In this document: in pieces, positions 1,414-41,695 of the stretch | How positions within the stretch are numbered: the stretch's first letter is position 1 | How the letters are laid out: every line of letters begins with the position of its first letter | Assembly: GCA_947458405.1 (NCBI GenBank) | Contig: CANGZW010000018.1 | Coordinates: forward strand, 1-42,297 | Direction: 5' to 3' | DNA from: Leptospiraceae bacterium | Lineage (GTDB): Bacteria > Spirochaetota > Leptospiria > Leptospirales > Leptospiraceae | DNA: 42,297 nt | Program-made: the position numbers and the translations under genes | Notes under the pieces: model-generated | Database searches by the model: none | What the model was told of the DNA's origin: nothing | The model's input: the letters and a program-made list of their open reading frames with translations, nothing else

Positions 1414-3789
1414 CTATCTTCCTCCCCTAGAAGCGGCAGAATCTAAAATAAAACCATCTATAAATCGCCTTTCATTTGACAAAGAACAATAATCATTGAG
1501 TCTTTTTAATTTAATATCTATAATAAAACATGACTCTGATTCTTTTTCTTTAACTAAGGCTTTTTGGTTTGAAAATGATTCTATCAATGGATATTCTACA
1601 CTAAATTTCACTTTTCCGGAAGTATCTATCAAACCATATTTATCATCTATACACACTACAGAAAAATTATCATAAAATCCTAATATATCTGTATAGGTAG
1701 GCTTTAAAATTATCTTACCCTCATTATTTAAAATTCCCCATTTTTCATCTCTTTGAAATGCATATAAATCATTATTAATATATTTCAAATTTGAATATTT
1801 AGCCTTTAAAGTGAACTGTCCACTTTTATTTATTATACCAAATATTTCATTACCTTCGGAAGTAACTTCTTTGTAAATTGCCCTACCTGAAATAAATGCT
1901 TGGACTTCCTGAATATCTTTTGCTAAAACTTTTAAATCCGATAATCGTAGTACGCTTGATAATTTATCTTTATTTATAACAACCAAATCTTCACTTTCAT
2001 AAACATCAATATTATCATTTTCAATTTCAATATATGGCTTACCGTTAGTATCAATCAATCCCCATAAATTATTGATACTAACTTCATAATAATTCCCATA
2101 TTTACTTCCCACTCCATCATATTTAAGTCGAATTATAACTTTTCCTTTTTTATCAATAAATCCCCATTTATTGTTATTTCTCACTGAAGCTACACCATTT
2201 TGAAATACAGAGGCGTCTTCATATTTATTAAATATTTTTAATTTACCTGCTTTATCTACATATCCCCACTTTTCATTTAATTTAACCGGGGTTAATTCGT
2301 TATCATTAAAATTATACATGAAGTTTTCATAAGCTAGATTTAGAATCACTTCAGAGTTATTATTAATGATTCCGCATTTTAAAAAATCATTGCAGACTAA
2401 AAATAAGTTATTATTTACATATTCTATTTCAGAATAGACTGGATCTGAAATAATTTTCATCGGATTAGAGTTTATATTGATAATTCCATATTTTCTATTA
2501 TCATCATTATTGTTATTATAATTAATATACTCCGTTCTAAAATATCCATCCCCAAGATATGATAAACTTGAATAGGCGGGTTTTAAATAAGCCTTTAAAA
2601 TCATATTTAAGATTCCTACAAGAGTTTCACCCTCAGAAGCCCCCGATTCTCTCATTCTATAAACATCTTTCCCTATGTCTTCAAAATCTAGAGAATTGTA
2701 GTATGGAGGAATAATTAAATTTCCATTCAAATCAACAACTCCATTTTTTTCGATCATACGATCATTCTCTGAATCACCATAATTTACGTACTCCGAAATT
2801 ACTAATTTATAAAATTTATTATTATAATTTTCAACATAAATTTCATTGTCATACTTTGGCTCCAAAAAGTATTTCCCTTTTTTGTCTAAGAGTCCCCAAA
2901 AATTATTAACTTTTACACCCAAAAATGATTCTTTATACTGACCAATCGCTTGAAGGTTAACTTTAGATATAGCCTTCCCTTCTTTGTCTAATACACCATA
3001 TTTTCCCTTTTTTTGTATTACAATAAATTCATCCTCTCTAGGCTCTATACTTTGAAATTTAGGCGGTAGAATTTCAGTTCCCGAAAAATTATAGAGACCA
3101 AAATCACCATTCAAATTTACCAACATCAAGTTTTCATTGAACTCCTTAATTTCATCAAAACTGATTGGAATAATTATTTTACCGGAGGAATTAAAGAGAC
3201 CCATATCCCGATTTTTACTCACAAGCAAAAAATTTTCTTTGTAGGGTTCAATTGTATCAAATTCTGTTGGAATTATTTTATTACCTAAAAAATCAATCAA
3301 TCCTAATTTATTCTTAAGGCTAACTTTGAGTATTTTTTCCTGAAAGATTTGTATATCATCAAAAGTAGCATTTGTAATGATTTTAGATGCACTTAGTAAG
3401 CCCCATTTTTCAAGATTTTCATATTTATAAATACCTTCCGTTATCAGTTCTAAATTGCTATACTTTGGTTTTTGAAGAGTAACTGCTTTTGAGGACAATA
3501 GACCATATTTACCATCCACTTTTACTATATAACCTCCATCAAAATCTTGTATAGAATCGTACTCAGCCGTTAGGATTTGATTGTCTTCCGAGAGGACAAC
3601 AAAAGAATCATTCAAATTTTTCTTGATATAGTTATTGTTCCTGTCCTTTACTTTCTCAAAAATTTCTGTTTTTCTAGGTTGAGCTAAAGGTTTGGCCTCA
3701 GAGATAATTTCTTCAGATGAGCAAAAAGAAGTTAGAATTATAATAAATATATAGGAAGTTATGTTTAATAAGTGTATTAAATTATTCAT
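1414..3789 (-). CDS. WG-repeat protein, probable exported or lipid-anchored
   Basis: A 791-residue protein built almost entirely from about 17 degenerate WG (KWGxxDxxGKxIIPxxYdxI) beta repeats spaced roughly 40-45 residues apart, for example KWGFIDKKGKVIIRLKYDGV and KLGLIDFLGNKIIPTEFDTI. The N-terminus has a hydrophobic stretch ending LTSFCSS with a cysteine at residue 23. That suggests a signal peptide and perhaps a lipobox, but Phe just before the Cys is atypical, so lipidation is uncertain. WG repeats are thought to form solenoid or propeller-like binding surfaces and have no assigned enzyme activity. The gene is very rich in Asn, Lys and Ile codons. It stands alone between dapA and the aquaporin gene; no clear ribosome binding site precedes the ATG. 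Confidence 0.86.
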   Translation of the reverse strand: MNNLIHLLNITSYIFIIILTSFCSSEEIISEAKPLAQPRKTEIFEKVKDRNNNYIKKNLNDSFVVLSEDNQILTAEYDSIQDFDGGYIVKVDGKYGLLSSKAVTLQKPKYSNLELITEGIYKYENLEKWGLLSASKIITNATFDDIQIFQEKILKVSLKNKLGLIDFLGNKIIPTEFDTIEPYKENFLLVSKNRDMGLFNSSGKIIIPISFDEIKEFNENLMLVNLNGDFGLYNFSGTEILPPKFQSIEPREDEFIVIQKKGKYGVLDKEGKAISKVNLQAIGQYKESFLGVKVNNFWGLLDKKGKYFLEPKYDNEIYVENYNNKFYKLVISEYVNYGDSENDRMIEKNGVVDLNGNLIIPPYYNSLDFEDIGKDVYRMRESGASEGETLVGILNMILKAYLKPAYSSLSYLGDGYFRTEYINYNNNNDDNRKYGIININSNPMKIISDPVYSEIEYVNNNLFLVCNDFLKCGIINNNSEVILNLAYENFMYNFNDNELTPVKLNEKWGYVDKAGKLKIFNKYEDASVFQNGVASVRNNNKWGFIDKKGKVIIRLKYDGVGSKYGNYYEVSINNLWGLIDTNGKPYIEIENDNIDVYESEDLVVINKDKLSSVLRLSDLKVLAKDIQEVQAFISGRAIYKEVTSEGNEIFGIINKSGQFTLKAKYSNLKYINNDLYAFQRDEKWGILNNEGKIILKPTYTDILGFYDNFSVVCIDDKYGLIDTSGKVKFSVEYPLIESFSNQKALVKEKESESCFIIDIKLKRLNDYCSLSNERRFIDGFILDSAASRGGR

Positions 3790-3904: not shown

Positions 3905-4627
3905 TTATAATTTAATTAAAAATGCGGCAAAAGCTGATCCACATAAGGGCGCTAAAACAGGAATCCATGCATATTGCCAATTAGAACTCCCTTTGCCGGG
4001 GATAGGTAACAAAAAATGAACTAAACGGGGAGCTAGGTCTCTTGCAGGATTAATTGCATATCCAGTAGTTCCCCCCATTGATAAGCCCAAACTCCAAACT
4101 AAAATTCCCACTAAAAATGTTCCCAAATGGGGTTGTAAATCGGGCGTTCCTTTATGAAAAATAGAATAGAGACCTAATAGTAATACAAATGTTCCTAAAA
4201 ATTCACTAAAAAAATTAGATACTTTATGAAAGATAGCAGGTTCTGTTGAGAAGATAGCAAGAATGCTATTACTGTTATTACTCTCTTTCCAATGCGGAAG
4301 AAAATGAAGATATACCAAAATAGCTCCACAAAATGCACCTAAAAACTGTGCTATAAAATAAGAGAAAATTTTTGAGAAATCAGAATCTAATATAGCAAAT
4401 CCAAGGGTCACTGCAGGATTTAAATGAGCGTCTGTACTACCAAATGCCTTAGCTGTAAATACACCCATAACAACCGCAAAAGCCCACCCAGCTGTGATAA
4501 CAATCCATCCTGAATCTTTAGATTTAGATTTCTCAAGTAAGACACCTGCTACAACTCCATCTCCCAGAAGTATTAAAATTAGGGTTCCCAAAAATTCTCC
4601 AAAAAAAGGGGATATCAAATGACTCAT
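3905..4627 (-). CDS. glpF: MIP-family aquaglyceroporin (GlpF-like)
   Basis: A 240-residue inner-membrane channel of the major intrinsic protein family with six hydrophobic segments. Both half-helix motifs are intact: NPA at 70-72 and NPA at 193-195, the latter followed by Arg196-Asp197. Asp after NPAR is characteristic of glycerol-conducting members rather than strict water channels. The selectivity-filter positions that can be aligned with E. coli GlpF are Trp48, Tyr190 (Phe in GlpF) and Arg196, which fits glycerol or small-polyol passage. AGGA precedes the ATG by about 8 bases. No glycerol kinase sits next to it, so it appears monocistronic. Substrate preference is inferred. Confidence 0.92.
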   Translation of the reverse strand: MSHLISPFFGEFLGTLILILLGDGVVAGVLLEKSKSKDSGWIVITAGWAFAVVMGVFTAKAFGSTDAHLNPAVTLGFAILDSDFSKIFSYFIAQFLGAFCGAILVYLHFLPHWKESNNSNSILAIFSTEPAIFHKVSNFFSEFLGTFVLLLGLYSIFHKGTPDLQPHLGTFLVGILVWSLGLSMGGTTGYAINPARDLAPRLVHFLLPIPGKGSSNWQYAWIPVLAPLCGSAFAAFLIKL

Positions 4628-22108: not shown

Positions 22109-22255
22109 TCTAAAAAATTCCTTTTTATAACCCTCAGACAGAATAAATAACTCTAATCGAGAATACAACTAAAATGGATTTTTAAATAAATACTTGACTT
22201 AGAAAATTTAAATATTATCTCTAAAGGGCATACATAATCAAAACGGAGAAATAGA

Positions 22256-24277
22256 TTGGAAAAAGAAGCAACAGTTGGTAGATGGCAAAAAGAATTCTTT
22301 GAAAATATTCATATTTTCGTAAAGAGTGGAATGGCTGAAGATGATGCAAGAAAGCTATTAGAAAATTTTCTAATTCGTTCCGGTTCTACCCCAATTCCTC
22401 CCGTAATGAACATTTTTAAAGAACCCGAAACTCTCGAAAAAATTGGAGTTTATACTGAGGGGAATGAATCAGCGAGAGAGTTCATGATAAATTTTTTAAA
22501 CCCCATTATGAGTAATTTTAAAGTAGTGGGCTTAGAAAATCTTGAATTAATTGATAAAGTAATAGGAAAATATCCTGTCACCCTTATTTCAAACCACCTA
22601 AGTCATTTAGATGCACCTGGTATTTTTCATTTACTATATACTTCAGGAGAACTTGGCAAAAGGATTGCCGAGAAAATCGTCTTTATTGCCGGAAGGTTAG
22701 CTTTTGAACCCGATTTCACGCGATTGGGATTGTATATGTTCGGTACTCTTTTGGTATGCTCAAAAAGAGACATGTCAGATAATCCATCCCTATCCGATTT
22801 AATGACTAAAATTAACATGAGAGCCTTCAGACTCTCCCAAAAGTTACAATCAGATGGAAAAATAATATCTATCTTCCCGGAGGGAACTAGATCTAGGGAT
22901 GGTAGACTTATGCCTTTTGTTGATACTGTCTATCACTATGTTGCTAATAAAGTTGTAATACCAATTTCTCTAGAAGGCACAGATAAAATCCTCCCGACAT
23001 CAGGCTTTTTATTCAATGCGGCAAGAGGGAAACTTGTAATAGGAAAACCTGTTTTAGTTGGAGATATTAAAAGGAAACCGGGAGGAGAAATTCTTGATGA
23101 GCTTGAACATATAGAATTCCCCGAAATTGGTGATAAAAAGCAATTTTTAATTGATAATTTAGCACTTTTAGTAGGTTCCAATTTAAGTAAACATAAACAT
23201 GGGATTTATAGAAATCTTTACAATGCTGATAGGCCGATTAAAGAAAATGTTTTAATTCAAAGCAATTCAAAACCTGAAGAGACAATTGTTGTAATCGGTC
23301 AAAGTTATAGATCGACTGCAACAGCGACTATTTTAGCAAACAAGAATGTTGAGGTTATTGTTTATAATCCAGATAAAGAGGTAACTGATGTTTGTAATAG
23401 TGAACACAGAGATATTGTTAACTTTCCCTTATTCAAACTTCCTCCTAATATTAAATTCTCTTCAGATCCTGAGATACTAAGAAAAGCAACCCTCTTTATT
23501 CAAAGTACAAATCCCTGGCAATTTGAATCTGTATATCCTTCTATTCAAAATGAGCTGAATAAAAATAAATCAGTAATCGTGAATGTAGTGAAAGGTTTTT
23601 CTTCCTCACCTAGGGGTTTAATTTCTTATGATTTAGAAGAGATGGGCATTGAAAAAAGCCGATTGGCAGTAGCGGCAGGAGCTGGATACCCTGAACAAAT
23701 GATGGAAAGAAAAATTTCAGGATTGGAAATTGCAGCTATAGATACCAGTCAGATCCCAAGACTTGTAAAGCTGTTTTCAACGGGTTATATCTTTTCAAGA
23801 CCAGCCTTAATTGAGCATGACATAATTGGTGTTCAACTTGGGGGAGCTTTAAAATCCGTTTATGCTCTAGTAATGGGAATGATAGAGGGCTATTTTAAAG
23901 ATGCACTAGGAGGAGATGTTGACAATACCCTATTTCATCTCTCCAACAGATTTTTTCGTGAAATGGTTGACATTGGTGTAATACTTGGGGGCAAAGAAAT
24001 CACATTTAATGGATTGAGTGGTTTAACAGATTTTATGCTGTCATGCTTTGGAGCCGATTCCCATGACCGAAAGTTTGGTTATGATTTAGTTAATGGTATC
24101 ACATCTCAAAAAGTAACCAGTGGTAGTTTTGGAATTAAAGTTATTTCAAATTTACTACGTCTAGATTTTGAAAAATATCCAATTATGACTGCTGCACATG
24201 AAGTTGTTGTAAATAATGCTGATGGGGAGGAAATGATTATGGTAATTCAAGAGAGGCTTTCCAAATTACATCATTAA
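22256..24277 (+). CDS. fused 1-acylglycerol-3-phosphate/G3P acyltransferase and glycerol-3-phosphate dehydrogenase
   Basis: A 673-residue two-domain protein starting at TTG 22256 with CGGAG seven bases upstream. Residues ~80-270 are a PlsC-type acyltransferase with the catalytic NHLSHLD motif (H114, D119) and FPEGTRSRDG at 207-216. Residues ~342-665 are GpsA-like: K446 in NVVKGF and K533 in GGALKSV match the GpsA catalytic lysines, and GLSGLTD (586-592) is the family signature. The NAD loop is altered to GQSYRST instead of GxGxxGT. The GpsA part would make sn-glycerol-3-phosphate from DHAP, and the PlsC part would acylate it or lysophosphatidate at the inner membrane. The fusion suggests direct hand-over of product. 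Domain calls are strong; whether both sites are active is uncertain. Confidence 0.92.
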   Translation: MEKEATVGRWQKEFFENIHIFVKSGMAEDDARKLLENFLIRSGSTPIPPVMNIFKEPETLEKIGVYTEGNESAREFMINFLNPIMSNFKVVGLENLELIDKVIGKYPVTLISNHLSHLDAPGIFHLLYTSGELGKRIAEKIVFIAGRLAFEPDFTRLGLYMFGTLLVCSKRDMSDNPSLSDLMTKINMRAFRLSQKLQSDGKIISIFPEGTRSRDGRLMPFVDTVYHYVANKVVIPISLEGTDKILPTSGFLFNAARGKLVIGKPVLVGDIKRKPGGEILDELEHIEFPEIGDKKQFLIDNLALLVGSNLSKHKHGIYRNLYNADRPIKENVLIQSNSKPEETIVVIGQSYRSTATATILANKNVEVIVYNPDKEVTDVCNSEHRDIVNFPLFKLPPNIKFSSDPEILRKATLFIQSTNPWQFESVYPSIQNELNKNKSVIVNVVKGFSSSPRGLISYDLEEMGIEKSRLAVAAGAGYPEQMMERKISGLEIAAIDTSQIPRLVKLFSTGYIFSRPALIEHDIIGVQLGGALKSVYALVMGMIEGYFKDALGGDVDNTLFHLSNRFFREMVDIGVILGGKEITFNGLSGLTDFMLSCFGADSHDRKFGYDLVNGITSQKVTSGSFGIKVISNLLRLDFEKYPIMTAAHEVVVNNADGEEMIMVIQERLSKLHH

Positions 24278-40687: not shown

Positions 40688-41695
40688 ATGAAAATTACAA
40701 TCATTGGAGCAGGAAATATTGGAATTTATATAGGGGGATTCTTATTGAATAGTTCTTTAGATGTAACATTTCTAGGTAAGGATCGAATCAATAAAGAATT
40801 AATTGAGAATGATTTATTATTAAGTGATTTAAAAGGATTTCAAATAAAAATTCCTTATGTTAATTTAAATTATAAAACTAACCCTAATGAATTAGCGAAA
40901 TCAGATATTTATATTATAACAGTTAAATCGCATGATACAAAATCAACTCTTAACTCTTTTAAAAATATAATTGAAGAGAAAAATATAATCATCAGTCTTC
41001 AAAATGGTGTAAGTAACTTTGAGCTTATTAAATCCATTTATCCTAATAATATTATAATTTCTGGTATGATTCCATTTAATATTTTTAATCAAAGTCCGGG
41101 TGTTTATAAGTGTACTACGAGTGGTGAATTGATTTTTCAAAACTCAGAATGTAATTCAATTTTAAATAATTTATTTCATGATAGTAAATTATCATATAAA
41201 TTTGATAATAATATTGAGGGAATTTTATATGGAAAATTAATCTTTAATCTAAATAATCCTATAAATGCTTTATGCAATCTTCCTTTAAGAGAAGAATTAT
41301 TGAACCCTGAATTTAGGTTAATCCTATCTAATTGTATAAATGAAGCCCTGGATGTTTATAGTCTGGCTAAAATTAAACCGAAAATTTTAGGAAAAATGAT
41401 TCCTTGGTTAGCACCTTACGTATTACGACTTCCAAACTGGCTCTTTTCTAGAGTAGCGTCGAATATGATTAAAATTGATCCTTACGCTAGATCATCTATG
41501 TGGGAAGATTTAAAAAAATTAAAAACGACTGAGATAGATTATATAACCGGCGAAATCCTTAGACTAGCCAATAAATTTAATGTCCAAACACCCTATAATT
41601 CTCTAATTTATAACTTAATAAAGGAAGCAGAAAAACAAAATATAGGCTCACCATCCTTAACATCTTCTTACATTCTTAATAAAATAAAAAGTTGA
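40688..41695 (+). CDS. panE: 2-dehydropantoate 2-reductase (ketopantoate reductase) family
   Basis: A 335-residue Rossmann oxidoreductase of the PanE/ApbA family, expected to reduce ketopantoate to pantoate for coenzyme A synthesis. The NADP loop GAGNIG is at 7-12, VKS with K80 and LQNGV (104-108) follow, the catalytic lysine is K183 in GKLIFNLNNPINAL, and TEID at 281-284 with SSMWEDL (269-275) matches the C-terminal signature. PanE paralogues with other 2-keto acids as substrate are common, so the pantothenate role is probable, not certain. Codon use is strongly AT-biased like the nearby intergenic DNA. Confidence 0.85.
   Translation: MKITIIGAGNIGIYIGGFLLNSSLDVTFLGKDRINKELIENDLLLSDLKGFQIKIPYVNLNYKTNPNELAKSDIYIITVKSHDTKSTLNSFKNIIEEKNIIISLQNGVSNFELIKSIYPNNIIISGMIPFNIFNQSPGVYKCTTSGELIFQNSECNSILNNLFHDSKLSYKFDNNIEGILYGKLIFNLNNPINALCNLPLREELLNPEFRLILSNCINEALDVYSLAKIKPKILGKMIPWLAPYVLRLPNWLFSRVASNMIKIDPYARSSMWEDLKKLKTTEIDYITGEILRLANKFNVQTPYNSLIYNLIKEAEKQNIGSPSLTSSYILNKIKS

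Follow-up and report, generated by a model that had tools for sequence, protein, structure and literature searches.

What does a bacterium do with a single polypeptide that joins an acyltransferase to a relative of the glycerol 3-phosphate (G3P) dehydrogenase GpsA? Membrane building is committed once glycerol phosphate receives its first acyl chain, and the enzymes that perform this step vary by bacterial lineage (PlsB, PlsX/PlsY or PlsE). The gene that raises the question lies at 22256–24277 on the forward strand of a 42,297-nucleotide stretch of Leptospiraceae DNA (the window), which is contig 18 of a draft genome of 3.94 Mb and 96.5% completeness (labelled G000). In agreement with the sequence-only reading of this DNA, the gene forms one open reading frame without internal stop; it encodes 673 aa from a TTG start, and a GGAG motif (22245–22248, forward strand), likely the ribosome-binding site, lies 7 bases 5' of the TTG. 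The gene stands alone on the forward strand; a hisZ-like gene and purA are oriented divergently to it, and the hisZ–purA neighbourhood is also present around the fusion gene of another family member (G001). On its reverse strand the window further encodes a 791 aa protein built from WG repeats (1414–3789) and a MIP-family channel with two NPA motifs (3905–4627), possibly a glycerol facilitator and then relevant to G3P supply; a forward-strand gene of the ketopantoate reductase family (40688–41695; ApbA, ApbA_C) also triggered the NAD_Gly3P_dh_N model.

Profile searches recovered both halves proposed for the protein, all three domains exceeding the curated Pfam cut-offs. The acyltransferase domain (PF01553, aa 89–237, 22520–22966, 3.7e-12; this and all features below lie on the forward strand) carries the anticipated HX4D catalytic motif (NHLSHLD; H114–D119, 22595–22612) and an EGTRSR motif within FPEGTRSR (aa 209–214, 22880–22897); the His and Asp of the former and both Arg of the latter are invariant (30/30). 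An inter-domain segment conserved throughout the class, HGxYRNLY (aa 315–322, 23198–23221), is followed by NAD_Gly3P_dh_N (aa 344–496, 23285–23743, 6.1e-11) and NAD_Gly3P_dh_C (aa 522–661, 23819–24238, 5.1e-24).

The fusion is genuine. A tblastn search of 61 genomes retrieved it as one open frame in 34, with relatives ranging from 75% down to 48% identity and the copy of one genome (G007) interrupted by a contig end; the identical single-frame arrangement in 34 genomes rules out the frameshift or assembly join between the halves that was looked for. In one further genome (G020; L058, 630–2715), a frame change between the halves splits the fusion, through either sequencing error or a real event. 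An N-half profile applied to 393 genomes of the phylum detected the fusion, in part or whole, in 40 of 48 class members, comprising all eight genomes of the family, 21 of the 22 other members of the order and most of a third family. The profile found no match in 345 sampled genomes outside the class, in seven class members (families f4–f6 and genus g19) or in the small, incomplete genome G029. Both halves are under purifying selection, with pairwise dN/dS of 0.01–0.09 where dS is unsaturated (about 0.02–0.08 for the GpsA-like half), and these values reject a pseudogene. The N half is better conserved than the C half (54–79% versus 44–70% identity to this sequence). A plasmid collection returned only ordinary GpsA, at <60% identity over half of the query, and a search of the open-access literature found no published description of the fusion, which may be annotated elsewhere. 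Two known enzyme families are thus joined in a class-wide fusion, the second half of which is unusual.

That second half is a GpsA-family domain, as had been proposed: GpsA models alone score well among the NCBIfam profiles, and on this ground other dehydrogenase families, such as ketopantoate reductases, were rejected. It nevertheless falls under every NCBIfam cut-off, the best GpsA match reaching 137 bits versus a required 257. The C half aligns over its full length with solved G3P dehydrogenases (3k96, 2.8e-30; human GPD1, 4e-19). In GPD1, K120, K204 and D260 perform the chemistry, and the substrate phosphate is bound by R269 and N270, with a cost of 5.6 kcal/mol for N270A and 9.1 kcal/mol for R269A (PMC12874384). 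By alignment, the two catalytic lysines already recognized in the sequence-only reading correspond to K120 (K446, in VKGF, 23591–23593) and K204 (K533, in ALKS, 23852–23854), and D592 (24029–24031) corresponds to D260; all three are retained in 28 of 28 fusions, with which four further sequences agree. The substrate-phosphate pair is replaced by H603–D604 (24062–24067). Across the fusions, the N270 equivalent is Asp in 31 of 32, and the R269 equivalent is Arg in 18, His in seven and Lys in three of 28; the N205 equivalent is replaced in four of 28. The sole fusion read with Asn at the N270 position (L103, G033) has His beside it at the R269 position.

The nucleotide loop has also been remodelled. 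It reads GQSYRS (23297–23314) at the position of the canonical GxGxxG, bearing out the suspected loss of its glycines, and in an alignment of the fusions the second Gly is Ser or Thr in 28 of 28 and Ser in four more, so that, with all 32 fusions read affected, the loss is ancestral. GxGxxG and the Asn are intact in all canonical GpsA rows of the alignment and in those of a second, opposite-order fusion described below. In a maximum-likelihood tree the GpsA halves of all fusions group as a single clade (100/100), the stem of which measures 2.69 substitutions per site. Within this clade divergence is not very much faster than in canonical GpsA, the respective identities being 70% versus 73% between the present genome and its nearest relative (G004) and 57% versus 72% between the present genome and G001. 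Given the single long-stemmed clade and the purifying selection, the GpsA-like half is an ancient, remodelled and maintained paralogue, as opposed to a decaying gene, and the changes in the nucleotide loop and the phosphate-binding Asn mean that DHAP reduction by it is not to be assumed.

The acyltransferase half had been described as PlsC-type, a label that our comparisons do not favour. TIGR00530 (PlsC) is its top NCBIfam match, but at 25.5 bits against a cut-off of 102.95, and the PlsB model TIGR03703 gave no match at E values up to 1. Against solved structures, an N-half profile ranks Thermotoga PlsC (5kym, 1.4e-9) ahead of plastid GPAT (1iuq, 3e-8), whereas the single sequence favours GPAT over PlsC (2.7e-6 versus 1.1e-5), and the half shares with 1iuq a FIAG...CSK.M.D.P.L...N.R stretch. 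Foldseek, queried with a model of the N half, lists the plastid GPATs 1iuq and 8ia1 first (1.8e-5 and 2.2e-5, ~340 columns) and PlsC later (2.1e-3); AlphaFold modelling gave low confidence (pLDDT 56) both for the full-length protein and for the N half alone, so that its support for this ranking is weak. Of the G3P-binding residues H139, K193, H194, R235 and R237 of plastid GPAT, the His and both Arg are kept in the fusion; the K193 site is variable and the H194 site is Asp. By sequence plastid GPAT is therefore about as close as PlsC, and by predicted fold closer. That the N half acylates lysophosphatidic acid or another lysolipid in the manner of PlsC, and is no first-step enzyme, is a reading we regard as possible, though doubtful: the top profile match to 5kym, the best NCBIfam score and EGTR, the usual PlsC form of the motif, speak for it, while the wide shortfall from the TIGR00530 cut-off, the modelled fold resemblance to plastid GPAT and the presence of an ordinary-looking PlsC in the same genome (L063, contig 133) speak against it. 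Weighing sequence and predicted structure, we favour a first-step role in G3P acylation for the half over a PlsC identity. Genus g21 (third family, f3) contains stand-alone paralogues of the acyltransferase half at 33–35% identity (for example L061, 958–1908, in G032, at 34%).

The separate gpsA, plsY and plsC genes whose survey the sequence-only reading had suggested were recovered only in part: the genome encodes a canonical GpsA on a separate contig (C159) and the PlsC-like L063, but PlsY was not found in this 96.5% complete assembly by HMM or by tblastn with the PlsY of a relative. The fusion is thus an addition to canonical GpsA. GlpK and PlsX are present, PF01553 yields 14 matches at 13 loci, and no GpsA–PlsB fusion was found in this genome. 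The channelling or locked stoichiometry that the sequence-only reading drew from the fusion is a hypothetical consequence, and free canonical GpsA and GlpK are available alongside it. Because the genome has PlsX and no detectable PlsY, the fusion is a good candidate for the first acylation here, beside the other acyltransferases as possible candidates. The nearest relative (G004, 75% complete) likewise has PlsX and no detected PlsY. Canonical GpsA is found in most fusion-bearing genomes, and so is PlsY, so that the fusion is usually not the sole first-acylation candidate. Of the 40 fusion carriers, 15 have no PlsY, whereas all seven non-carriers have it (Fisher p 0.08, uncorrected for kinship, with some genomes incomplete and G029 omitted as too incomplete). 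In two genomes, G009 (92% complete) and G012 (91%), the fusion is kept and PlsX, PlsY, canonical GpsA and the GpsA–PlsB fusion were not detected; these two and G025 have no GpsA-family match besides the fusion. Since G009 and G012 both possess GlpK, which can supply G3P, the absence of canonical GpsA is no proof that the fusion synthesizes it.

We consider it about an even chance that the protein is a two-domain enzyme at the entry to phospholipid synthesis, with a GPAT-like N half and a GpsA-like C half that supplies G3P or gates its use. The N half would be a soluble acyltransferase of the PlsC/GPAT superfamily, most likely converting G3P to lysophosphatidic acid in the manner of plastid GPAT and of chlamydial PlsE, which belongs to the plastid kind and is proven to acylate G3P from acyl-ACP (PMC6167442). 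The C half, which retains the hydride-transfer residues and is altered in its nucleotide loop and phosphate recognition, may be a modified dehydrogenase that has kept its binding of a triose-phosphate or NAD(H)-type ligand and provides G3P, or gates its use, during acylation. Preservation of the Lys/Lys/Asp set points to some retained chemistry; simple reduction of DHAP at a normal rate is hard to reconcile with the changes in the loop and the phosphate site.

Rival readings of the protein are each less probable. The C half could be a classical dehydrogenase turning DHAP and NAD(P)H into G3P and handing it to the acyltransferase half, a tentative reading that draws on the three invariant catalytic residues, on true G3P dehydrogenases as the closest solved relatives, on the lack of another GpsA-family match in G009, G012 and G025 and on the opposite-order fusion with an intact active site in related genomes; it has to contend with the loss of the second GxGxxG glycine in all fusions, the near-universal Asp at N270, the His or Lys at R269 in 10 of 28, and the canonical GpsA that most of these genomes own, with GlpK as another source of G3P. 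The same loop and phosphate-site changes, the coexisting canonical GpsA and the better conservation of the N half would suit a non-catalytic sensor, in which the GpsA-like half gates the acyltransferase according to its binding of G3P, DHAP or a nucleotide, but three invariant chemistry residues under strong purifying selection go beyond what is expected of a binding-only domain, and we rate this reading, too, as rather unlikely. Least probable is a DHAP route, with DHAP as the acyl acceptor of the N half and 1-acyl-DHAP reduced to lysophosphatidic acid by the altered GpsA half, a scheme in which domain order matches reaction order, the chemistry residues are kept while the substrate-recognition end is changed and the undetected PlsY of this genome finds a place, but which does not obviously explain the loss of N270 (acyl-DHAP retains the phosphate), found no bacterial precedent in a literature search and sits poorly with the GPAT-like similarity of the N half to G3P enzymes. 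The broader notion of a GpsA-like half with a new substrate such as 1-acyl-DHAP, giving a DHAP-first phospholipid route in one spirochete protein, is similarly improbable; to our knowledge, no such route has been established in bacteria.

A second fusion bears on the proposed two-domain enzyme. Frames of about 800–877 aa with a GpsA domain occur in the sister family f2 (14 members) and, in another part of the phylum, in the genome G053. In the five copies read (L053, 759–3224, in G018; L054 in G013; L056 in G014; L057 in G008; L104 in G010), about 820 aa long, GpsA comes first and is followed by a PlsB-like acyltransferase (TIGR03703, 2.1e-19); the GpsA part, with GxGxxG and the RN pair intact, groups in the tree as a clade of its own, and the origin of this fusion is independent. 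The G053 protein (L055, 1449–3887) has the same length class and an intact GpsA; its C-terminal half seemingly lacks HX4D and EGTR and matched no acyltransferase model. That these two steps have been joined twice, in opposite orders, suggests that selection in this lineage favours their coupling.

Taken together, the fusion may act at the start of membrane-lipid synthesis in the Leptospira class. If so, the union with a remodelled GpsA across the class would represent a further solution to the first acylation, in spirochetes, and could account for genomes without PlsY. It offers a naturally occurring case in which to study the link between G3P supply and lipid synthesis and, having lost GxGxxG and N270 while keeping its chemistry residues, a test case for dehydrogenase repurposing.

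Among known systems, canonical GpsA (3k96, 1z82) shares with the C half the entire domain pair and the K120, K204 and D260 equivalents; the fusion differs in the change of GxGxxG to Gx[S/T]xx[S/G/A] and of N270 to Asp, in its separate long-stemmed clade and in scores below the NCBIfam cut-offs. The N half resembles plastid GPAT (ATS1; 1iuq, 8ia1) and PlsE as a soluble-type acyltransferase of similar length with the FIAG / CSK.M.D.P.L / N.R stretch and both motif III Arg, ATS1 being its best fold match in the low-confidence model; motif III is SGGRDR there and EGTRSR here, K193 and H194 are not retained, and neither enzyme is fused to GpsA. With PlsC (TIGR00530, 5kym) it shares HX4D and FPEGTRSR, but it lies under the family cut-off, has an additional N-terminal helical region of ~80 aa and a different block II. 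The GpsA–PlsB fusion likewise unites the GpsA family and a G3P acyltransferase in one chain, in the same bacterial order, with reversed domain order, an intact GpsA site and a PlsB-type partner. The Dunaliella bidomain GPDH (6iuy) offers a further parallel, in which a G3P dehydrogenase domain is joined to an adjacent-step enzyme, a phosphatase and not an acyltransferase.
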